20,082 bases of DNA. It comes from a virus. The position numbers and the translations under genes are program-made. Positions 3,957 to 18,300 of the stretch are shown here, one piece after another. Numbering within the stretch: the first letter of the stretch is position 1; each line of letters starts with the position of its first letter. The stretch lies in the IMG/VR virus record IMGVR_UViG_3300030419_002417, positions 1 through 20,082 of that record; one strand, 5' to 3'. Below the pieces are notes generated by a model. The model had not been told where the DNA came from. It was given only the letters and a program-made list of their open reading frames with translations, and did not search any database.

Positions 3957-4236
3957 TGGTTGCCTCCTTTTCTTTTATCACTTGCTGCCATTGATCCTTC
4001 AGATTTTCATGTGCTGCTCCTGCTGTTAATATATTTATTTGTTCATCCATCCAATACCAGAAAGCTCCTGTTAATTCATTCTTATTAATTGGGATGTTTC
4101 CGTAAACTGAGCAGCAATATATTTTATTATTTCTTTTTATATAATGATCTCTGTGAATCATATTTTTAATAAACAGATCATAATATTTTTCTTTTAATAG
4201 TGCTGCTGTGTGTATGTCTTGATGCTGTATAGTCAT
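3949..4236 (-). CDS. Unrecognised small protein, first gene of the middle unit
   Basis: The product has 95 residues with an N-terminal helix (MTIQHQDIHTAALLKEKYYDLFI), a central strand-like KRNNKIYCCSVYGNIPI, a Trp/Phe-rich GAFWYWMDEQINILTAG and an acidic/basic end. No motif identifies it. AAGGAG with the shared AACATT-ATG start context lies in front. A promoter candidate (4394-4423) and a hairpin (4283-4307) sit in the non-coding stretch upstream, so it is probably the first gene of a unit running to 2893. Confidence 0.78.
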   Translation of the reverse strand: MTIQHQDIHTAALLKEKYYDLFIKNMIHRDHYIKRNNKIYCCSVYGNIPINKNELTGAFWYWMDEQINILTAGAAHENLKDQWQQVIKEKEATNE

Positions 4237-4282
4237 AATGTTTTTTCTCCTTAATGATTTAATGTTTTAATGTTTTAAATGC

Positions 4283-4307
4283 TGCTTAGTCACTAGAAAA
4301 CTAAGCA
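4283..4307 (-). repeat. Inverted repeat in the leader of the 3949-4236 gene
   Basis: TGCTTAGT and ACTAAGCA form a perfect 8-bp inverted repeat around a 9-base centre. In the leftward transcript from 4394-4423 it would fold as a hairpin about 45 bases before the start codon. No T-run follows on either strand, so it is not a standard terminator; an operator or an mRNA-stabilising hairpin are the main options. Just downstream lies a short TTTAATG-type direct repeat (about 4258-4280). The rest of 4237-4450 shows no gene. Confidence 0.6.
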
Positions 4308-4393
4308 ATGTTTAATCCTTTATGAATGATTTATAATATCATATCTAGTATTGATTTTAAAAGTTATTAATTATTTAATAACTGTTGCCTTTT

Positions 4394-4423
4394 ATATTAC
4401 CTCCTTTGTTTTTTAAATGTCAA
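4394..4423 (-). promoter_or_regulatory. Promoter candidate, leftward
   Basis: On the minus strand TTGACA (4418-4423, perfect) is followed after 18 bases by TAATAT (4394-4399, imperfect). It lies between the 51-residue gene and the gene starting at 4236, giving a leader of about 150 bases that includes the 4283-4307 hairpin. An orphan AAAGGAGG sits inside the spacer without a following ATG. Confidence 0.55.
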
Positions 4424-4450
4424 TAAGTTTGTAACCTATTTTTTAATTAA

Positions 4451-4606
4451 TTAATCTAAGTTTATATTTTTAGTTAGTCTTTCAGTTTTGATAATGTCTA
4501 TTTGTTTTCTTACTCTTTCGTTCCATTCTTTATCTGTTAATTTAAACTCCTTCTTATGAGCCTTAACAAGTAGATAAGTTTCAAGTCTTGTTATCCAATC
4601 AAACAT
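4451..4606 (-). CDS. Unrecognised 51-residue basic protein
   Basis: A short ORF from ATG 4604-4606 to TAA 4451-4453 encodes 51 residues, rich in Lys, Arg and Glu and probably one long helix pair (MFDWITRLETYLLVKAHKK, then WNERVRKQIDIIKTERL). A very strong AAAGGAGGT precedes the start, with an (AT)n stretch between, which argues for a real gene despite its size. It lies 26 bases after the Gp88-like gene and is the last gene before the internal promoter at 4394-4423. No family is recognised. Confidence 0.72.
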   Translation of the reverse strand: MFDWITRLETYLLVKAHKKEFKLTDKEWNERVRKQIDIIKTERLTKNINLD

Positions 4607-4632
4607 ATATATATATACCTCCTTTAATTTGT

Positions 4633-5301
4633 TTAATGTTTTATATAAGTAATTGATTTAATTGATTTATCCCAGCACATCCTGCAATCATTGCATTGAC
4701 CATTAGAATTCGGCTTAGTAGCTGGACAAATTTTGGTGTCACTTGGTACTGTGTTCAGCTTATCCTCATCGTATACATATGATTCCGTTATATTATTCAT
4801 TGGCTGCATCTTGTATGCGTTGATTAATGGATGTGATTTTCTTACATTTAAATTGCTTGGAATTTGATTAGCATATATTTTAACTAGTTTAAATTCTTTA
4901 GTTGGTAGCCAAAATTTAATTGACGGATTTAAGTTAGCAAGTTTTATAATGTCTTGAAACATTTCTGCTCCTTGTATATCTCCACTATCAAACCATCTAA
5001 AGTATTTGGTATCTTGTATTTCTTTTTTATTCTTTAATAAATAATCCATTGATAATAACCAAAGTTTTCTATTTGTTCTCCATAGCTCCAGCCTTCTAGC
5101 GTATGCGTTCTGTTGCGTTGGTAATGCTTGCATACCCTTGAGCGCATAGCATCCGTCACAAACTGTTGCTTGGTTGGACTCTCTCAACTTCGTGCCTGTT
5201 GCGCAGTCTAAAGCTGATATACTCCAAGATAAAGAAGGCATTTTAGATACTTTGCTTAAGCCTCCTACATTTTTGGTTGCTTCTTTAATTGTCATTGTCA
5301 T
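4633..5301 (-). CDS. Gp88-like cysteine-rich phage protein
   Basis: With the start at ATG 5299-5301 (AAAGGAG upstream) the product has 222 residues; a TTG 51 bases earlier is in frame but lies in the hairpin. Features match the phage/plasmid gene-product-88 family as I know it: LSKVSKMPSLSWSISA near residues 15-30, C33, then CDGCYALKG (48-56), FRWFDSGDIQ (101-110), FWLPTKE (130-136), and a C-terminal cluster C192, C203, C206, C209. The seven cysteines suggest an iron-sulfur or zinc centre; the biochemical role of the family is not established. The gene shares its leader hairpin with the metallopeptidase gene upstream, so the two are probably controlled alike. Confidence 0.85.
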   Translation of the reverse strand: MTMTIKEATKNVGGLSKVSKMPSLSWSISALDCATGTKLRESNQATVCDGCYALKGMQALPTQQNAYARRLELWRTNRKLWLLSMDYLLKNKKEIQDTKYFRWFDSGDIQGAEMFQDIIKLANLNPSIKFWLPTKEFKLVKIYANQIPSNLNVRKSHPLINAYKMQPMNNITESYVYDEDKLNTVPSDTKICPATKPNSNGQCNDCRMCWDKSIKSITYIKH

Positions 5302-5320
5302 AATGTTTGTTTCTCCTTTA

Positions 5321-5350
5321 GCTGCTGCAGCTTTTGGATTCTGCAGCAGC
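5321..5350 (-). promoter_or_regulatory. Intercistronic leader hairpin, copy A
   Basis: In the leftward mRNA GCTGCTGCAG and CTGCAGCAGC pair perfectly (10 bp) around the 10-base loop AATCCAAAAG. The element sits between the stop of the metallopeptidase gene and the AAAGGAG of the Gp88-like gene. Its twin at 6517-6546 keeps the loop and stem but swaps one C-G pair for G-C, so pairing is conserved while sequence changes. There is no T-run after it, so termination is unlikely; control of translation or mRNA processing/stability is inferred. Confidence 0.85.
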
Positions 5351-5369
5351 AATTTAATTTATTTATTTA

Positions 5370-6500
5370 TTATAAGCAGCCTTTGAACTGTTTGTCAATA
5401 GGTTTGTTAACTATCTTAATTTCATTTGGTTGAAATATATACCTTTCTGCTTGGTCTGCTAGCTTCGCAGCTATTAATAATCTTTCAACCTTTTCTTTTT
5501 TAGTTTTAAACATACTTAGCCAGCCTTTAATATATAACCCTGCGTTGTTGTATATTTTATCTTTATCGATTGCGTTATCGTCAAACCTTTTAAGGCTGTA
5601 CAGCATACCAATTTCTGCTACGCATTCTTCTAAGCTCCTTCCGTGAGTTTCGTTATATATAACTTTGTTTCTTCTATTGGTTCTGGTCTGGTGGTTGGTT
5701 GAATGTATTAACTCATGTATTACAGTTTCTAAAAAGTTTTCATCACTTAACATATCTGAAGATCTTCTTACATTTACTGTATCTGTTGATGGTCTATAAT
5801 ACGCTGTCATTTCTCTATGAAATTTTATATTTGGTTTACTTTCCATATTAACAATCATAGAATTAATAAAATCTAAATCTTTTAATTCTGTGCTGTTCTC
5901 TTCTTGTTCTTGTATCAACTGCCATTGTTCAGCCGTGATATTTTTATTTTTCTTTAATAACTTTTCGTTCTCCGTGCCTAATAAGTTTTCAAAACTCTCA
6001 ACATTGGCAACATAGGACAGCTTCGAAAATCTATAAATCATTTTTTCTCCTGCTGCTTTTAGCTGCTCATTAATTTTTTCTTTAACTTCTTTTGATACTT
6101 GCGAAGGATAGGAGCTTCTTTTATATCCATATTTTACAAGTAAATCCTTAGCTGCTTTAGTAAAGACAATGGAATTAAACCAGATAGGACACAATTTTGT
6201 CCCTTTAATTAATTTTATTCTATGCTCCTTATATAGTTTGTTAAATGATGACTGAGATATAAAGCCTTTATGTTCAAAGCCGAAGTGTTGATTATATAGT
6301 TTCGTTGTAACTCTGTTTTGTTGGTTGAATGTATAGCCGTGTAAAGCGTTGAATGTATCATCAATATTGATTAGCGCTTTGCCTCCGTTCTCCCAATCTC
6401 CGAGCGCTTTCTCCATCATTGGATAAATAAAATCTATAACTGATTCTTTTATATCAATTGTAGGTTCTTTGGTTAATTTGTTTATTTGCAATGTTGTCAT
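5370..6500 (-). CDS. ArdC-like zincin metallopeptidase domain protein
   Basis: The product has 376 residues from ATG 6498-6500; AAAGGAG precedes it, and an in-frame TTG upstream falls in the leader hairpin. Residues about 228-300 match the metallopeptidase half of ArdC/TraC-type polyvalent proteins: YYRPSTDTVNV, then the zinc motif HELIHSTNH (His262, Glu263, His266), TRTNR, and LEECVAEIG, whose Glu is the expected third zinc ligand. The N-terminal 220 residues do not clearly show the usual ssDNA-binding DUF1738 pattern, and residues 110-130 and 155-175 may be a divergent version. ArdC proteins protect incoming DNA from restriction; an antirestriction role early in infection is inferred, not shown. 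It is followed by the Gp88-like gene with a twin hairpin. Confidence 0.88.
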   Translation of the reverse strand: MTTLQINKLTKEPTIDIKESVIDFIYPMMEKALGDWENGGKALINIDDTFNALHGYTFNQQNRVTTKLYNQHFGFEHKGFISQSSFNKLYKEHRIKLIKGTKLCPIWFNSIVFTKAAKDLLVKYGYKRSSYPSQVSKEVKEKINEQLKAAGEKMIYRFSKLSYVANVESFENLLGTENEKLLKKNKNITAEQWQLIQEQEENSTELKDLDFINSMIVNMESKPNIKFHREMTAYYRPSTDTVNVRRSSDMLSDENFLETVIHELIHSTNHQTRTNRRNKVIYNETHGRSLEECVAEIGMLYSLKRFDDNAIDKDKIYNNAGLYIKGWLSMFKTKKEKVERLLIAAKLADQAERYIFQPNEIKIVNKPIDKQFKGCL

Positions 6501-6516
6501 AATGTTTTCTCCTTTA

Positions 6517-6546
6517 GCTGCTGGAGCTTTTGGATTCTCCAGCAGC
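6517..6546 (-). promoter_or_regulatory. Intercistronic leader hairpin, copy B
   Basis: In the leftward mRNA GCTGCTGGAG and CTCCAGCAGC form a perfect 10-bp stem with the loop AATCCAAAAG, the same loop as copy A (5321-5350). The adjacent TAAAGGAGAA and ACATTATGACA are also shared, so the whole leader is duplicated. The only stem difference is a compensated C-G to G-C exchange. It lies between the stop at 6570 and the ribosome binding site of the metallopeptidase gene. Confidence 0.85.
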
Positions 6547-6569
6547 AATTTAGTTTATATTGATTTAAT

Positions 6570-7082
6570 TTATTCTTCTCCTTCAGATACTCCATATCCG
6601 TTGATGTGAGTATCTGTTAATTTAAACCCTTGATGATCTGTTACGCTGCCGTTTAGGACTGCAAAAACATTTCCAAAATGTAATGTCCAATCAATAACAC
6701 TTAATCTTTTGTAGGTGTTTATATCTCTAGGTGTTGCGTTTTCTTTTTTGAAGTCTTTCTTTGCTACATCCAGCATATATTCCAATGCATCAGAAAGTAT
6801 TGACACCAAGAAATCTTCGTCTAATGCTGCTTGAAACATTCTTTGCAGTTTATAAGGAGCAGCAGCCAATATATTAAGAATCTCCTGCTTTTGATTAGAT
6901 GATCCATAATGGTTGCTGAAAGCTGCGTATAATGCATCAATCTGAGCATCAGAAACACCAGATAAGCCAAGATAAAAGGATCTATATGGGTTCCTAATAT
7001 TTGGAAGTTTAATTGATTGAAAATATTCTTTGCCGTATTTATAAACTTTTTGACTTGTAAAATTGGTTGGTAATGTATTCAT
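6570..7082 (-). CDS. Unrecognised protein, first gene of the leftward early region
   Basis: The product has 170 residues and looks mainly helical: DAQIDALYAAFSNHYG, an Ala-rich EILNILAAAPYKLQRMFQAAL, and DFLVSILSDALEYMLDVAKK, followed by a strand-like VIDWTLHFGNVFAVLNGSV and an acidic C-terminus. No signal peptide, membrane helix or catalytic motif is seen. AAAGGAG is 8 bases ahead of ATG 7080-7082. As the first gene after the strand-switch region it is probably expressed early, and could be a regulator or host-takeover protein, but nothing visible decides this. Confidence 0.82.
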   Translation of the reverse strand: MNTLPTNFTSQKVYKYGKEYFQSIKLPNIRNPYRSFYLGLSGVSDAQIDALYAAFSNHYGSSNQKQEILNILAAAPYKLQRMFQAALDEDFLVSILSDALEYMLDVAKKDFKKENATPRDINTYKRLSVIDWTLHFGNVFAVLNGSVTDHQGFKLTDTHINGYGVSEGEE

Positions 7083-7115
7083 TTTTTAATCTCCTTTGAA
7101 GATTTATTTAATTAA

Positions 7116-7142
7116 TTAATAAAAAATATATATGTTTGTCAA
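7116..7142 (-). promoter_or_regulatory. Leftward promoter candidate for the early region
   Basis: A perfect TTGACA on the minus strand (7137-7142) lies 55 bases before the first leftward gene. The -10 is uncertain: TATTAA at 15 bases spacing (7116-7121) has 4 of 6 matches, while at 17 bases TTAATT has 3. The position directly in front of the first gene and the perfect -35 support a promoter. Confidence 0.55.
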
Positions 7143-7177
7143 TACCTTTGTATACCTATAAAAAGTAGTAAATATCA

Positions 7178-7218
7178 TTAAAAAGCGCTATTTTTAAGAA
7201 AAACATACAAAAAGTATG
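7178..7218. repeat. Two adjacent inverted repeats between diverging promoters
   Basis: TTAAAAA-GCGCTA-TTTTTAA (7178-7197) and CATAC-AAAAA-GTATG (7204-7218) are perfect small palindromes in the stretch between the leftward and rightward TTGACA boxes. Stems are AT-rich, so chance is possible, but the placement is that of operators. Otherwise 7143-7304 holds only AT-rich sequence and no gene. Confidence 0.4.
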
Positions 7219-10109: not shown

Positions 10110-11885
10110 ATGGCTAAAAAACCTAAGGCTGAAGAAATAATAAATAAAGTTGAAGCTCATTACGACTCAACTGAACCTTTACGATCAAGAATGGACAGAG
10201 ATTATTCTATTTATCGACTTGATCCATACGATGCAGGCGAAGATTTCCACAACTACACATCTAACGAACCAGCAACATTTGCAGATAAAATAATATCTTT
10301 CCTAAACGCATCAGAACTAACTGCTCGTATCCCTGTCAATTCACAGGAAAGAGAACAAAGAGAAGCTAATGACAAAAAAGAAAGATTCTTTATTGGCACA
10401 CTAAGAAGCGCTGACGAAAGATTAAAGATGGCTATACAACCAGATGTTAAATCACAACTTGCTTTTTATATTACCCTTCGTGGATGGTACGCAGGAAGAG
10501 CCTTGCTAACTAAAAACAAAGAAGGGAAAACATTTGTAGATGTAACACCATTTGACCCCATGCACACATATTGGTCATCTGGTTATGACGGATTAATATG
10601 GGCGTGTTATAAAACTAAACGATCTAAAGAAATGATTGAATCACAATACAATGTCAGATTAAATTTGTCTGACGACCATGACGATTGGATAGATGTCTAC
10701 GATTACTACGACAGAGAATATAACATGGTTGTACTCTCTAGTGGTAAAGTGGTTAAGAAAGCTACACCACACGGCTCTACTAGTGTCCCTGTATTCTTGG
10801 GAGCAGTAGGAGCAAACCCAGAAATACAAGCACTCAATCAAGCAGTAGCGATTGATGATACCATAAAAGATTATGGAGAATCTGTATTCAGACACAACAG
10901 AGATATATACGATAAAAATAATCTCATGATGTCTATAATGCTCGAACTTACAGCTCGTGCAAGACGACAGGGATTAAAGATTAAATCAAGAGATGGTACT
11001 AAAACCTTAGACGAAGATCCCTACAAAGAAGGTACTGAGATATCTTTAGGACAAGGAGAAGATGTAGAACCATTAGGACTAATGGAAATGTCTAGGGAAA
11101 CAGGAGCTTTCTTAGGATTGCTATCTGGAGAACTACAAAGAGGAGCATTGCCACACAGCATATACGGAGAATTACAATTCCAACTATCTGGCTTTGCTAT
11201 CAATACCTTACGACAAGGTATTAACTCTATACTAGAACCAAGAATAAAAGCACTTGAAGCTGCATACACAAGAATATGTATGCTACTTAACGATCAATAC
11301 TTAACAGATGCTTTTGATGCTATGGAATTATCTGGAGAAGATATGAACAGAAATTACTTCTCAGAAGAAATAACTCCAGATGCTATACGAAATGCAGGAG
11401 ATATTGTTATTAAGTTTGTAGGTCAACTACCAGAAGATGATATGTCTAAGATGAGCATGGCACAAATGGCTAGAGAAGGTCAGAGTCCATTGCTACCAGA
11501 CTTGTTTATCAGAGATAAAATACTTGGATTACAAGATGGAGATTTAGTTGACGATGCTATAAAAGAACAACAGGCAGAAAGAGTATTGCCAGAAGCAACT
11601 CTATATACTTTACTTTCTGCTACAGAGAACAGAGGAAGAGATGATCTTGCTCAGTTCTACTATGGAGAATTATTACATATATTAAGACAGAAGGAAATGG
11701 AAAGGCAACAGGCACAACAGGCTATGCAACAACCTCAAACTCCAGAAGGAGCAACACCACCTACAGCAGACCCAAGAGTTATGCCTAATGCTATGATGGG
11801 AGTACCACCTCCCACACCAACACCACCACAGGGAACAGTAGCGCCAGAAACTCCAAGACCTAATGCACAAGAGGGAGAGATATAA
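10110..11885 (+). CDS. Portal protein
   Basis: The product has 591 residues. The N-terminal part (MDRDYSIYRLDPYDAGEDFHNYTSNEPATFADKI, split here by other residues) and the following FYITLRGWYAGRALL, FDPMHTYW and VYDYYDREYNMVVLSSGKVV segments are typical of phage portals: helical wing, then stem and clip. Around residues 350-400 RGALPHSIYGEL and FQLSGFAINTLRQGINSIL lead into a long helix that would form the crown. The last 60 residues are a Gln/Pro-rich tail. Twelve copies make the DNA channel at one vertex. Start ATG 10110 is two bases after the terminase stop, with AAGGTGGAG in front. Recognised by pattern and position. Confidence 0.92.
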   Translation: MAKKPKAEEIINKVEAHYDSTEPLRSRMDRDYSIYRLDPYDAGEDFHNYTSNEPATFADKIISFLNASELTARIPVNSQEREQREANDKKERFFIGTLRSADERLKMAIQPDVKSQLAFYITLRGWYAGRALLTKNKEGKTFVDVTPFDPMHTYWSSGYDGLIWACYKTKRSKEMIESQYNVRLNLSDDHDDWIDVYDYYDREYNMVVLSSGKVVKKATPHGSTSVPVFLGAVGANPEIQALNQAVAIDDTIKDYGESVFRHNRDIYDKNNLMMSIMLELTARARRQGLKIKSRDGTKTLDEDPYKEGTEISLGQGEDVEPLGLMEMSRETGAFLGLLSGELQRGALPHSIYGELQFQLSGFAINTLRQGINSILEPRIKALEAAYTRICMLLNDQYLTDAFDAMELSGEDMNRNYFSEEITPDAIRNAGDIVIKFVGQLPEDDMSKMSMAQMAREGQSPLLPDLFIRDKILGLQDGDLVDDAIKEQQAERVLPEATLYTLLSATENRGRDDLAQFYYGELLHILRQKEMERQQAQQAMQQPQTPEGATPPTADPRVMPNAMMGVPPPTPTPPQGTVAPETPRPNAQEGEI

Positions 11886-11886
11886 A

Positions 11887-14800
11887 ATGACACCTGTAGA
11901 AATAAGAGATGCGCTAGCTAGAGGAATGAACTTTGACGCTGTAATGGCAAGGCACGCAGCAGATATACAAAGAGAACAAGGAATAGACATGGGTCTTTCT
12001 ATGTCACGAGCAAGAACTGATGTACAAAATATACAAAACGCAAGAGATGAAGGAATAGACCCTCCACAAATTGCATCTCCTGCAGCTCCAACAATCGGAG
12101 CGCAAGATATAGCATTAAAGCCTTTGGAAAAAGCCTTAACATTCACTCCACCAACAGCAGCAGTTGCGCCAATAAGAACAGGAACTCCTATAGGAAGTAT
12201 GGGATTACAAGGTAATTTACCACCTGTAGATTTGCAACAACAAGCTCTGATGGATATGCCAACAGGCAATGTGCCTTTAACATCTTTGCAAAAACTAAGA
12301 CAAGATCTGTTAATGGCACAGTTACGACAAGAACCAAGTATTCAAGCTGCATTTCAAACACAAGCAGATATGCCAAGTGAAATCGCAAGATTTGCTAGAG
12401 CAGTAAAACCATCTGTTCCTGTAGATCAAGTAGCAAAACTACAAGGAATGCGACCTTCTGCTCTAAGGGATATAAATTTAGAAGCAGTAAGAAATTTACC
12501 TAACTTGTCTTTGTTCGCTACTGACCCTAACGAAGCTGCAAGGTTTGCAAGAATAGCAGGAGGAGAAGCTCCGTTAGATGCTAATGAAGAGGCAAGGTTT
12601 GTAAGAGCAGCACAATCAGCAGCACAAACAACAGGACAATCTATTGCAAATGTTACACAACCTGTATCAGATTTTTCAGACTTTGAAGGTATAGCAACAC
12701 CATCGTTTGCCGAGCAGGCAGCGCAACCAACAGCAGGAATTGATCCTAACGAATTAGCTAGATTTGCCAGAGCAGGACAACCAATGGATACAGGATTGTC
12801 AGCAGATCAAGCAGCAAACTTAGCAGCAAATGAAGCAAGTTTGCGACAAGCTACAAGATTAGCAGGACTTGATCCTAGTGAGGTAGGAAGATTTGCAAGA
12901 GCAGGTCAACCACCTTTATCTCAAGTACAAGATGAACTAGACAGATTTGAAAGAGAACGAGCAAGAGTAGAAAGAACAGCAGGGACTTCTTTTGACCCTG
13001 TAGAGTTATTCCCAGCAGGCGATCCATATGAAAATATATTTAGCAGAATAGGTGGAGGTCTTAGTAATTTTTACAATCAACTTAGAACAGGTGGAACAGA
13101 TCAAAAAGAAAACGCAATTAACGAAGCAAGATCAAATTTTATAAATAACAACCAAGCGCTAGCAACATCTAACCCAGAAGAATTTGGAAAAAAATTAGCA
13201 GAATTTGAAAATGCTTTAAACGATTATAATACTCATAAAAGTAATATGTTTGAATTAGAAAGATTCAAAGTTAAAGCACAGCAAACTAATGCTGCAGCAG
13301 ATATAGCTAAAGTAACAGAGAAAGAAAAAGAAGTAAAAGAAAGTAAAGCAAAAGCAGATGCTAATACAATTATTAGCGATGCAGGTGGAGTTGTAGACTT
13401 TTCTGAATTTGAAGGACTTGCTCAACCAAGAACAAGTACTTTTTATAAGCCAGAAAACGAAACGCAACTTAAAGCAGCAAAAGCTGCTGGCATAATTCCG
13501 AAGGATCAAACACTTAAACAAGCACAAGATAATGCTGATGCATTATTAAAATCTACTGTAGTCCCACAACCAACAATAACACCAACGCCACCTGTAGGAA
13601 CACAGCCACCTGTAGGAACACAGCCACCTGTAGGAACACAGCCACCTGTAGGTACGCCACCAATGGGAACAAATGTTATAGGTGGAGGAGGATTTGCTCC
13701 AACTCCTGCAGCAACATTAGCAGGACTAGGAGAGTTAGGTGGAGTGTTAGGAGATAGAAGTCAGTATGTACAATCTATGTTAACTCCAGAACAACAGTTA
13801 TCGAGGTATGCTTCGTTCTTACCAACAACTGCATTAACTCCAGATATGGAAGAATATATGACAGATATTGCGTTGCCTCAAATGGAAGCTGCGTTTTATG
13901 CGCAAGGTGGAGATTTACCAGATAGTCCGTATGCTCCAACAGCAGGAAGTCCTTACTCTGCATTTGAAAACTTTATGAGAACAGGTAGCAGATTAGACCC
14001 TGCAGCGTTTCAAGAATATTTAGGGGAAGTAAGTGGAGCTTTGCAAGCTAGCGATCCAACACAAAGACAACAATTTTTATCTAGTTTATATGCTAGTCCA
14101 GAAGAACAATTACAATTATTATATCAAGGAATGGGAGCAGGAACTAGTGCAGCAACACGAGGAGCATTAGGAAGAATGTTAGGCAGGCAATATAGACAAC
14201 AGCAATTTGATGCGCCTGCGTCAGCCTTCTTACCTTCTGCATTAGCTAGAGGTGGAATAGGTGGAGCATTTTCACAATATGTAACTCCACAAGGAACAGT
14301 TGCAACAGCAGCACAGCCACCTGCAATGTCAACAATAATGGCAAATCAAGGAATAATACCTGCAACTTCTGGAGCAATAGATATGGATGCAGCTAATGCT
14401 GCAATGACTATGAATACAGGAGCTATGCCACCTGTACCTCCCACGCCACCTGTAGTACCTGCAGCAACGCCACCTGTAGTACCTGCAGCAACACCACCTG
14501 TAGTACCTATGGCAACAACACCAACAATAGCGCCAACACCTGTAGTGCCACTAAGTGTTCAGTCTACAATGCCAAAAGTTAACAGACCACAAGGAATGTC
14601 AGTAGCATTTGGTGGAGAGGGTGGAGGTTTTTATGATCCTACTACTTATTATATGACTGAAGAACAAAAAAAAGCATACGATGCTAAACAAAGAGAAGGG
14701 TTAACACCAAGATACGATATAACAGGCACAAATATTATTGGGTATGACGCACTTGGAAAAGGACAGGCAATAAGAACTTGGGTTGACGATGAAGGCAATC

Positions 14801-14958
14801 AACAAAACATGATAGTTAATGATCCTAATTTAAAAAGTGGAATGGATTATGATTTGCAAATGGAACAAAGAAAAAAGAAAAAGAAAAAGAAAAAGAAAGA
14901 TGTCAAAACAACAGTAGCAATGCCTGCGTTGGTTTCGCAAGGCGAGTTATTAAATTAA
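11887..14958 (+). CDS. Large Ala/Gln/Pro-rich repeat protein, probable virion component
   Basis: Started at ATG 11887 (GGGAGAG upstream, just after the portal stop) it has 1023 residues; an ATG at 11863 inside the portal gene is in frame but less well placed. Five 14-residue modules of the type DPNELARFARAGQP lie at residues 162-342. DFS[DE]FEG[IL]A appears twice (262-270 and 504-512). A charged helical stretch covers 400-500, PPVGTQ repeats 568-591, a mixed domain 600-800, PPVVPAAT repeats 854-877, and a run of nine Lys at 996-1004. Few strong hydrophobic segments occur. Position between portal and internal virion protein suggests a head- or ejection-related structural part; family not recognised. 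Confidence 0.85.
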   Translation: MTPVEIRDALARGMNFDAVMARHAADIQREQGIDMGLSMSRARTDVQNIQNARDEGIDPPQIASPAAPTIGAQDIALKPLEKALTFTPPTAAVAPIRTGTPIGSMGLQGNLPPVDLQQQALMDMPTGNVPLTSLQKLRQDLLMAQLRQEPSIQAAFQTQADMPSEIARFARAVKPSVPVDQVAKLQGMRPSALRDINLEAVRNLPNLSLFATDPNEAARFARIAGGEAPLDANEEARFVRAAQSAAQTTGQSIANVTQPVSDFSDFEGIATPSFAEQAAQPTAGIDPNELARFARAGQPMDTGLSADQAANLAANEASLRQATRLAGLDPSEVGRFARAGQPPLSQVQDELDRFERERARVERTAGTSFDPVELFPAGDPYENIFSRIGGGLSNFYNQLRTGGTDQKENAINEARSNFINNNQALATSNPEEFGKKLAEFENALNDYNTHKSNMFELERFKVKAQQTNAAADIAKVTEKEKEVKESKAKADANTIISDAGGVVDFSEFEGLAQPRTSTFYKPENETQLKAAKAAGIIPKDQTLKQAQDNADALLKSTVVPQPTITPTPPVGTQPPVGTQPPVGTQPPVGTPPMGTNVIGGGGFAPTPAATLAGLGELGGVLGDRSQYVQSMLTPEQQLSRYASFLPTTALTPDMEEYMTDIALPQMEAAFYAQGGDLPDSPYAPTAGSPYSAFENFMRTGSRLDPAAFQEYLGEVSGALQASDPTQRQQFLSSLYASPEEQLQLLYQGMGAGTSAATRGALGRMLGRQYRQQQFDAPASAFLPSALARGGIGGAFSQYVTPQGTVATAAQPPAMSTIMANQGIIPATSGAIDMDAANAAMTMNTGAMPPVPPTPPVVPAATPPVVPAATPPVVPMATTPTIAPTPVVPLSVQSTMPKVNRPQGMSVAFGGEGGGFYDPTTYYMTEEQKKAYDAKQREGLTPRYDITGTNIIGYDALGKGQAIRTWVDDEGNQQNMIVNDPNLKSGMDYDLQMEQRKKKKKKKKKDVKTTVAMPALVSQGELLN
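12370..12912 (+). repeat. Protein-level RFAR repeats in the 1023-residue protein
   Basis: Five degenerate units centred on E-x-A-R-F-A-R-A, at residues 162-175, 213-226, 231-244, 286-299 and 329-342, read as DPNELARFARAGQP in the clearest copy. DNA identity is low, so they are old or under protein-level selection. Confidence 0.8.
13588..13659 (+). repeat. 18-bp tandem repeat encoding PPVGTQ, four units
   Basis: CCACCTGTAGGAACACAG is repeated with near-perfect identity, giving PPVGTQ three times and a fourth PPVGT. The high DNA identity points to recent expansion; copy number may vary among related phages. Confidence 0.9.
14446..14517 (+). repeat. 24-bp tandem repeat encoding PPVVPAAT, three units
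   Basis: Units begin CCACCTGTAGTACCT and code for PPVVPAAT twice and PPVVPMAT once. CCACCTGTAG is also the core of the 18-bp repeats at 13588, so both arrays may come from the same seed. Confidence 0.88.
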
Positions 14959-15338: not shown

Positions 15339-18300
15339 ATGCCACATACACCTAATCATAAATATTACAATATAAGACCACAACCTACACAGAGCTTTGT
15401 GCCTACACCAAGAGCGCAAGTACAAATCCCTACTATGGGAATGTCAGCAGGGTTAAAGACCCCTATATTTGGTAGTCAAATTCCAACTATGATATCTCAA
15501 GGCAAACTGCCAGCTCCTAGCAAACCAACAACACCATCAAAAAACTTAGGGTTATCTTCTGATGTAGCAGAGTCTATAAAATATATAGCTCCTAAAATCG
15601 GACAGTTTGGAGCAGCTACAGCCAGAGCTATAGATCCAACAGGTGGAGCATTTAGAAACTTTTTGCGAGGCGAAAGAGGAATGGATGTGTTTGATCCACA
15701 ATCATTAATTGGCGCAACTGCAAAAGCAATAGACCCAACTGCTGATATGGGTGGATGGCAAAGAGCTGGAACAGCGCTACAACCTGTTTTAAATGTGCTT
15801 GGTAAATTTACAGAAGCATGGGATCCGTTGTTAGCAACAGCAGCAGCTCCGTTAGCAGGATCGAAAAAAAGTTTTATGTTAGAAGGAGAACAGTCATTTA
15901 ATCAGATACATAAAAAATACAGAGAACAAGGAGATAGCTGGTTAGAAGCATCCGACAAAGCATGGGATGAATTAGATTTGCATGAAGTGAATACTCCAAC
16001 AGGATGGGTAGGTTCGTTACCTAAATGGGCAGAAACACCTGCTAACTTTTTAGTAAAAGATATAGCTCCAACTATTGGCTACAAAGGAGGAATAGAAATG
16101 ATTGACCCATTTGTATTGCTACCTCTAGGAAAAGGCGCTACGGCAGCAGGAAGAAGAGCATTAGGCAAAAGTGCAAATGTTAAAAAACTTGCTGAAGATT
16201 CTATAGCACGACAAAAATATCAGCCTTTTAAACAAACTGTTGAAGAGCAAACTAAAGCATGGGATGAACTTGATGCAAAAATTATTTCAAGTAAAGACGG
16301 AAGATATATTATAGGTAGAGAAAAAGGCGCTCCACTTATTATTAATGCTACTGATATTCCACAACGAGGAACAGCAGAGTGGACAAATTGGCATATAAGA
16401 ATAGACAATTTGTTAAACGAAAAGAATTTAACAGGATCGCAACATATCGACAGACAACTATCTATATTAGAAGATTTAAGAAAAACAACTCCAGAGTCAC
16501 AGCTACCACCAAAACCTAGAGATGGGTTATTTGATGATGCAGTAGAAATAGGAGAAGAATTACCTAGCACAGTTACTCCTAACCCTTTAACTAGTACAGT
16601 AGGGGTAAAGAAAGGAGCAGCAGAACAAATAGTAGGAAGAAGTATTGACCCAACAAGACGACCAACAAATGGCAGAACTGTTGTTGGCGGATTAGGAAAA
16701 GGAGATAAGTTAAGAAATTGGGTAGGAGGAATGTTAGGAGATAACAAACTTCCTGTGATAGGCAGGTTAGGATTACCTACAGCTAGTGAAGCTAGGGTTG
16801 CACAATACACAAAACCTATAACAAGAAAGGCAGAAGAAATCTCAGACAACGGAGCAGATTATGCTAAAGTATTAAGAGATAGGTGGAATGATAAAGCAGA
16901 CGGATTGTTTGGCGATGATTTAAGTAGAACAGAAGGGGTTGAAGTTATAACTAGTTTAATAGACAAAGGTGGTATGCCAACAGGAGTAGCTCCAACAATA
17001 GCTGATGTAGCAGCAAGACTTCCTTTATTTTGGGATGAGCTAGGAAAACTAGGAGTTAAAAATAACAAAGGAAATCAATATCAAAAATTCTTTACAGACC
17101 TAAGAGATGAGATTGGAGTTTACGACCAATATGTAAAAGAAAATAATTTAATATCTGCTTCAAGAGGCGACATAATAGAGCAGGGAAATTTAGCAGATAA
17201 TATAGACAGAGGGTTTTATATACGAAGAGAAGGAGGCACACGAAAGCAAGGAGATTTTGATTTTGATGATGCAGTATTATACGACACTTCTGGTAACACA
17301 ATAAACAGGTTTGATTTTGATGCAAAGTTTAGTAGCCAAGCAGAAGGAATAGGTTATGTAAATCCAGAAACAGGAGCAAGAGTAGAATACAAAGGATTTG
17401 CTGAAGGAATTAAAAGCCATGCGCAAGAAGTAACAAACCATATATCTTCTACATACAGAAAAGAAGCACTAGAAAATCTTAGACCAAATGCTCTTAAGCA
17501 AAACATGACATATAAACAATACTACGCAGACCAAGTAGAAAAAGGAGTGTTAAGCGCAGCATTGGCTAAACCTTTAATTGAATTAAAAAATGTTAGAAAT
17601 TTGTTGAGAGATATAGACAGAGCATTAGGCGACCCTAACGGATTTAAGTTTCTTGGTATTGAAGAATCTAATGAAAAACTGTTAAGAAAATTAGACAATT
17701 TTTTAAACGATCCTATGGCTAATCCAAATGAGATCAGAGCAATACTAAAAGAAATTAGAGCTGATGTAAATAAAAGATTGCGTATCCCAATAAAAGACAG
17801 AGCTTTAGCTGACCAAAACACTTTAAGTAATTGGGATGCGTTAACAGAAACTATTAATACACAAAGAAGGCAAATCATGCAAAAAACTAACAAGTTAGAT
17901 CAAGAATATTTATCTACCATGAAAAAAATAGAAGAACAATTTAGAAAAGAATTAGATAATTTGCCACAGTTAATAGAATATAACGGCATCCCTAAAGAAG
18001 GGTGGATAGACGATATGGGCAGAGAAATAGAAAAGATTATATTGAACGATCCTATTTTAATTCCTAAGAAAGAAAGGTTTGCGACAATCAAAGCTCTTAA
18101 TGGCTTAACAAGAGGATTAGGGGCAACCTTAGACTTTTCAGCTAATGGAATTACATTGTTGTTTGGATGGGCAAGAAGTCCGTCAGCATGGGCAAGAGCG
18201 TTTAAAGCTAACTTGCAATCTTTAGTTGACCCAAAAGTATTAGGCAAGCATATGGAATCTTTTAATACAAGATTAAAAAAAGATACAGGATTAGATTTAG

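Follow-up and report, generated by a model that had tools for sequence, protein, structure and literature searches.

In E. coli, stable structure downstream of stop codons has been linked to less reinitiation; such elements, termed RTS (Chemla et al. 2020, PMC7518266), are mRNA folds lying just past the stop, between genes at least 25 nt apart, and their authors regard the idea as still to be tested on native sequences. In the cluster K mycobacteriophages, a short repeat is found at the starts of some non-structural genes, about half of them with an inverted repeat just upstream (SAS and ESAS; PMC3203893). Related phages have different versions of the repeat; where the arms of ESAS depart from symmetry, the authors see no support for RNA pairing, and they favour DNA binding (PMC3203893). 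The PeSL of T4-like phages (Arbiol 2010 and Comeau 2014, as cited in PMC4503421) are, by the title of the 2014 paper, composite promoter-terminator motifs; they form mobile cassettes for early-gene control, with a stem-loop and variable genes behind. Two further cases are the inverted-repeat motif present before most left-end ORFs of the haloarchaeal virus HGTV-1 (PMC3950731) and the operator hairpin upstream of the ribosome site of gene 43 in phages T4 and RB69, where a single gene is autoregulated by its own product (PMC3014915).

The locus that we compare with these systems belongs to a virus record of 20,082 bases (the whole stretch of DNA analysed, hereafter the window). Its early operon, on the minus strand, reads in the order 170-aa ORF, ArdC-like gene, Gp88-like gene, 51-aa ORF and more, and two hairpins, both on the minus strand, occupy intergenic gaps of 68 and 69 nt. 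Each belongs to a leader unit of 51-54 nt that can be written AAATT-hairpin-TAAAGGAG-AACATT-ATG. The features concerned are the following:

4451-4606, minus strand: 51-aa ORF, orthologue of the hairpin-led ORF of the related locus L015; its leader is bare in the window.
4607-4640, minus strand: leader of the 51-aa ORF, AACATTAAACAAATTAAAGGAGG..., which is bare and represents the hairpin-free state.
4633-5301, minus strand: Gp88-like gene, 222 aa (Pfam PF17338, 2.3e-25).
5302-5355, minus strand: leader unit 1, AAATT-hairpin-TAAAGGAGAAACAAACATT to the ATG, defined by alignment; covariance match of 84.5 bits (the sequence is itself in the model).
5313-5319, minus strand: Shine-Dalgarno AAAGGAG of gp88.
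5321-5350, minus strand: hairpin copy 1, 10-bp stem and loop AATCCAAAAG, 5′ of gp88.
5369-5398, minus strand: perfect promoter-like site, TTGACA-18-TATAAT, overlapping the end of the ArdC-like gene.
5370-6500, minus strand: ArdC-like antirestriction gene, 376 aa (PHROG 7245, 1.4e-22; MPTase-PolyVal, 1.1e-16).
6501-6551, minus strand: leader unit 2, AAATT-hairpin-TAAAGGAGAAAACATT to the ATG, defined by alignment; covariance match of 79 bits (the sequence is itself in the model).
6509-6515, minus strand: Shine-Dalgarno AAAGGAG of the ArdC-like gene.
6517-6546, minus strand: hairpin copy 2, 10-bp stem and loop AATCCAAAAG, pair 8 swapped, 5′ of the ArdC-like gene.
6570-7082, minus strand: upstream cistron, 170 aa, with no clear family.

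Compared with the described systems, the locus shares with RTS a stable fold past the stop between well-spaced genes, and the computational RTS criteria pick it out; it differs in that a specific, copied hairpin stands in a phage leader, 16-23 nt past the stop and abutting the next Shine-Dalgarno, and in that insulation is here a proposed effect. The layout of SAS/ESAS is similar, a repeated sequence at gene starts plus an inverted repeat, but the sequence is unrelated and the variable pair of our hairpins keeps RNA pairing, G-U included. Thus the 13-bp SAS, GGGATAGGAGCCC, is absent from the start codons in question, where the window leaders read TAAAGGAGAAACAAACATT-ATG and TAAAGGAGAAAACATT-ATG, and instead of the imperfect, uncompensated 17-bp inverted repeats of ESAS we find 10-bp arms whose variable pair is paired in all three copies known. 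Set beside the PeSL as these are described in PMC4503421, our element may likewise be seen as a stem-loop cassette before variable early genes, but its hairpin follows the promoter, lacks a T-run and abuts the Shine-Dalgarno. Of the early sigma-70 promoter that belongs to a PeSL cassette, a perfect example stands before copy 1 and none of note close before copy 2. On the minus strand, the stem is succeeded by TAAAGGAG, and the terminators listed for the transcribed strand do not include this site; an intrinsic terminator was rejected for want of a T-run. HGTV-1 resembles the locus by description, but is an archaeal virus with a TATA-like motif, and the gene 43 operator resembles it as a phage hairpin upstream of a ribosome site, though ours is known from sequence alone.

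Read on the minus strand from 5350 to 5321, copy 1 is GCTGCTGCAG-AATCCAAAAG-CTGCAGCAGC, and copy 2, from 6546 to 6517, is GCTGCTGGAG-AATCCAAAAG-CTCCAGCAGC. The twin hairpins reported in the first-pass annotation proved exact: each has ten perfect pairs, the loops are identical, and the copies differ solely at pair 8, where both partners are exchanged, C-G in one copy and G-C in the other. The accompanying statement that the hairpins stand directly before AAAGGAG needs a small correction, as one U lies in between; the shared start context holds, and the unit in fact extends from the AAATT 5′ of the stem through the ATG. A pseudoknot between the UCC of the loop and the GGA of the Shine-Dalgarno was considered and dropped, the 10-bp stem being too long for 4 nt to span.

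Predicted folding energies of the two window hairpins are -17.6 and -17.8 kcal/mol (z of about -4 to -5). The window has no other perfect 10-bp stem containing at least 6 G/C, and 40 dinucleotide shuffles of it yielded none. For two random substitutions in the 30 nt, the probability that both hit the stem and leave every Watson-Crick pair intact is 0.009, or 0.021 if both are taken to hit the stem; this chance figure of about 0.01-0.02 is suggestive, not strong, support for a compensated change at pair 8.

A TerL search brought together 21 related loci. A third copy lies in L054 (contig 3300025305_003224; also L030 and L057) and reads AAATTGCTGCTGGAG-CTTCCAAAA-CTTCAGCAGC-TTAAAGGAAACAAAAACATT-ATG. 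Its stem matches at 19 of 20 positions in spite of divergence elsewhere, including indels right beside the stem: the loop has lost one base (9 nt) and one base is gained after the stem. UCCAAAA of the loop is common to all three copies, while 3 of 10 loop positions change, more than in the stem. At pair 8, the three copies have C-G, G-C and G-U, respectively, and each of the 30 pair cells holds a standard pair. Since the G-U of L054 keeps the RNA pair and breaks the DNA symmetry, RNA pairing is favoured over a DNA palindrome. With three sequences, column shuffling gives no significance, the observed value being reached in 164 of 500 shuffles, and a single paired change is weak evidence, because template-switch mutation, by which stems can arise and be corrected in the absence of selection (PMC8794818), could also yield it. 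The initial proposal that the RNA fold and not the DNA word is kept thus gains from the G-U pair, and from a different hairpin in the same slot of L015, but is limited by the number of copies and by this mutational route; the fold appears to be what is kept, on the strength of one variable pair in three sequences.

The known distribution is narrow, with three copies on two contigs. The covariance search put forward at the outset, run on 786 kb of related and Gp88-bearing loci, brought no copy beyond the three. A search of viral contigs for the stem plus Shine-Dalgarno pattern returned L054 alone (= L057, L030), and the leaders of 78 Gp88 genes contain some stable folds, this stem in none. BLAST of the leader against phage records gave 13 weak matches (E of about 0.7 where shown), none with at least 80% query coverage, and Rfam gave no match at the hairpins, with three weak matches elsewhere in 4200-7200, far below gathering scores. 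Other matches were rejected as chance: the loop followed by 10 nt and TAAAGGAG as an exact pattern had 12 matches in viral contigs, stemless except the window's own; the loop plus 3′ arm matched only stemless sites in viral contigs and bacterial genomes; and covariance matches in G011 and G012 (L052 and L049; E of about 0.001) contain unmatched model pairs, and their AT-rich stretch looks like the tail of an upstream reading frame. The ArdC-like protein as a single query found no relative, and a two-sequence profile found L054 and two remote loci.

Other repeated elements were seen in the course of these comparisons. Pelagiphage-type gp88 homologues (L060, and Gp88 loci among L072-L143) have degenerate heptamer arrays, (CAAGCNN)n, on either side. 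In 44 loci, we counted 147 arrays of at least 3 units, every one of them on the strand of gp88, with none on the other strand and none in the reversed control. All 16 dinucleotides are seen at NN, and CTTGACA, which resembles a -35 box, closes some of the arrays. The 11 matches in HTVC027P all fall within 16506-17737, a stretch that surrounds the gp88 homologue (16750-17349); the arrays are absent from those close relatives of the window that were examined. In the sister contigs G001 and G002, TCCAGGTAAYGC repeats precede early genes (L043 at 13835, 15212, 16212 and 17300; L045/L046) and in places pair into palindromes of 11-12 bp, the gp88 leader there holding a single arm. The related phages G011, G012 and G013 share a conserved, A/T-rich intergenic region of roughly 100 nt that contains two hairpins and ends in GTTTAAAGGA (L052 at about 17990-18095, its counterpart in L049, and L053 at about 2490-2600); it precedes genes without visible similarity (352 aa vs 67 aa) and is better conserved than the upstream gene. 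As to the proteins, Gp88 homologues from six phages (the window gene is that at 4633-5301) share invariant cysteines (CxxCYA, CPA...CxxCRxCW), which suggests a metal or Fe-S site, and the window carries at 11863-14958 a 1031-aa ORF with DPNEXARFARAGQP-like motif repeats and VGTQPP and VPAATPPV tandem repeats.

The hairpin does not follow gene identity. Gp88 orthologues of 91% identity (L015, L016, L017) have leaders without it, and in L054 it stands before a 57-aa ORF, the ArdC-like gene coming next with a bare leader; the hairpin is therefore not tied to either gene. This lends no support to the suggestion of the first-pass annotation that the element links an antirestriction-type protein to Gp88, and neither do the more distant Gp88 leaders, all of which lack this hairpin. 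The annotation had also held that homologous loci with a broken stem and kept flanks would speak against the fold: gp88 of L015 goes part of the way, keeping the leader flanks with the hairpin wholly absent, not half broken. In L015, the leader AACATTA(AA/AT/GA)(C/T)AAATT precedes six genes, and in one of the six an unrelated 13-bp hairpin, AACCCTTCAGATT-AAC-AATCTGAGGGGTT, stands directly 5′ of AAAGGA. That hairpin leads an ORF orthologous (51% identity) to the 51-aa ORF of the window, whose leader is bare. A survey of 408 Shine-Dalgarno/start sites in the relatives showed strong hairpins abutting the Shine-Dalgarno only in the two window copies, L054 and L015. Judging from these leaders, the hairpin is easily gained and lost.

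The four hairpin-bearing leaders (the two of the window, L054 and L015, in this order) have similar geometry, with 19, 23, 16 and 18 nt from stop to hairpin and 19, 16, 20 and 15 nt from hairpin to start. Ribosome footprints place such hairpins just outside both the terminating and the initiating ribosome. We applied the RTS criteria (PMC7518266), with simplified shuffles, to the 14 early junctions of the window. The next gene has to be at least 25 nt away or on the other strand, and the distances are 68 and 69 nt in the window, about 65 in L054 and 62 in L015. Folding has to be below that of shuffles in 5 or more 40-nt windows in a row, with openings from -10 to +20, and reach -6 kcal/mol or lower in one of them; the two window hairpins gave runs of 20 and 27 such windows with minima of -19.0 and -18.8 kcal/mol. 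Only 2 of the 14 junctions passed, both hairpin-bearing. The L054 junction passed too, as did the L015 hairpin junction, its three bare junctions failing. Predicted accessibility of the Shine-Dalgarno changes little, 0.73-0.88 with the hairpin vs 0.68-0.75 without.

This geometry, the RTS results and a predicted Shine-Dalgarno access that hardly varies with the hairpin lead us to favour insulation, then mRNA stability, then a protein operator. Our preferred reading, which we hold tentatively, is that of an exchangeable cis-acting RNA hairpin in a shared early-gene leader, insulating the downstream start from the upstream cistron; that the hairpin is transcribed, folds in the cell and insulates is what we infer. 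The leader cassette that this phage group has before several early genes occurs in two states, bare (AACATTAAACAAATT-AAAGGAG) or bearing a stable hairpin that separates its A/T-rich part from the Shine-Dalgarno. The hairpin would lie just beyond a ribosome halted at the upstream stop and just upstream of an initiating 30S subunit. Being outside both, it could stay folded while both are bound and would form a barrier to 70S scanning and reinitiation, the downstream gene then being translated on its own schedule; a side effect on mRNA decay would be likely, and secondary. Several points are against insulation: the paired change may stem from template switching in the absence of selection (PMC8794818); the small predicted effect on Shine-Dalgarno accessibility; RTS signals peak about 5 nt past the stop, a value that is the centre of an averaged profile, whereas the stem starts 16-23 nt past it here; most early genes with bare leaders manage without a hairpin; and the cases are few, three related copies and one unrelated.

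One alternative, which we consider possible and rather doubtful, is that the hairpin shields a cleaved downstream mRNA from nucleases, or that processing takes place at the hairpin itself, so that gp88 and the ArdC-like gene would each have a stable monocistronic mRNA. A stable hairpin does border the two cistrons at their 5′ side, and T4 gene 32 mRNA, processed upstream of its start, is very stable (PMC3014915). The promoters bear on this. Promoter-like sites matching at 12 of 12 positions number two in the window, vs 0.055 expected from shuffles. One lies 5′ of copy 1, which begins about 12 nt past the transcription start expected from it, but there is none of note close before copy 2, so that a 5′-end role would not be common to both copies. 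A stem of 10 bp is, moreover, a short substrate for RNase III. The second perfect site, TTGACA-17-TATAAT, lies at 2844-2872 on the minus strand, before the ORF that starts at 2810, where AACATT-ATG again closes the leader but there is no hairpin; AACATT stands immediately 5′ of the ATG in four window genes (starts at 6500, 5301, 4236 and 2810), two of which lack this hairpin.

It is unlikely, in our estimate, that a phage protein binds the stem or loop as a translational operator and so coordinates several genes, in the way that T4 gp43 binds its upstream hairpin (PMC3014915). The kept UCCAAAA would suit a protein site, but the loop varies more than the stem, orthologous genes lack the hairpin, and the stem, at 15-20 nt from the start codon, does not cover the Shine-Dalgarno. 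With unlike stems and loops in the same slot, as L015 has it, a structural role in cis is favoured over a sequence-specific operator. We also doubt that the hairpin is a scarcely functional or functionless remnant of a duplicated leader and of template-switch mutation, the mutation process making palindromes and keeping them perfect. The leader unit, nearly identical before non-homologous genes, must have been copied recently, template switching fixes stem pairs in one step (PMC8794818), and the hairpin is dispensable in orthologues; but an unrelated hairpin recurs with the same slot and geometry, and the L054 stem has been kept amid divergence and indels. An operator palindrome at the DNA level, the role suggested for inverted repeats in cluster K mycobacteriophages, seems improbable: the perfect dyads do lie beside promoters and starts, and the paired change between the window copies preserves DNA symmetry as well, but the G-T of L054 breaks the dyad, the loop is asymmetric and partly kept, and the L015 palindrome is unrelated. 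An N-terminal extension from an upstream TTG can practically be set aside, for although each of the three copies has an open frame through the hairpin, in phase with the ATG, the TTG has no Shine-Dalgarno and the L054 indels alter the peptide (AAAA, APAA to LQQL) while the nucleotide stem stays unchanged, which argues against a coding role.

Taken as an insulator, the hairpin would be a small, real variation on known leader and insulator elements, of modest weight. It is conceivable, at a low probability, that the site between the A/T-rich box and the Shine-Dalgarno is an exchangeable slot, in which unrelated hairpins are gained, lost and swapped and translation is thereby switched between coupled and insulated. 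If the insulator reading is right, these phages would offer natural gene pairs having the same leader with and without a translational insulator hairpin, and hairpins would be exchangeable parts of phage leader cassettes.
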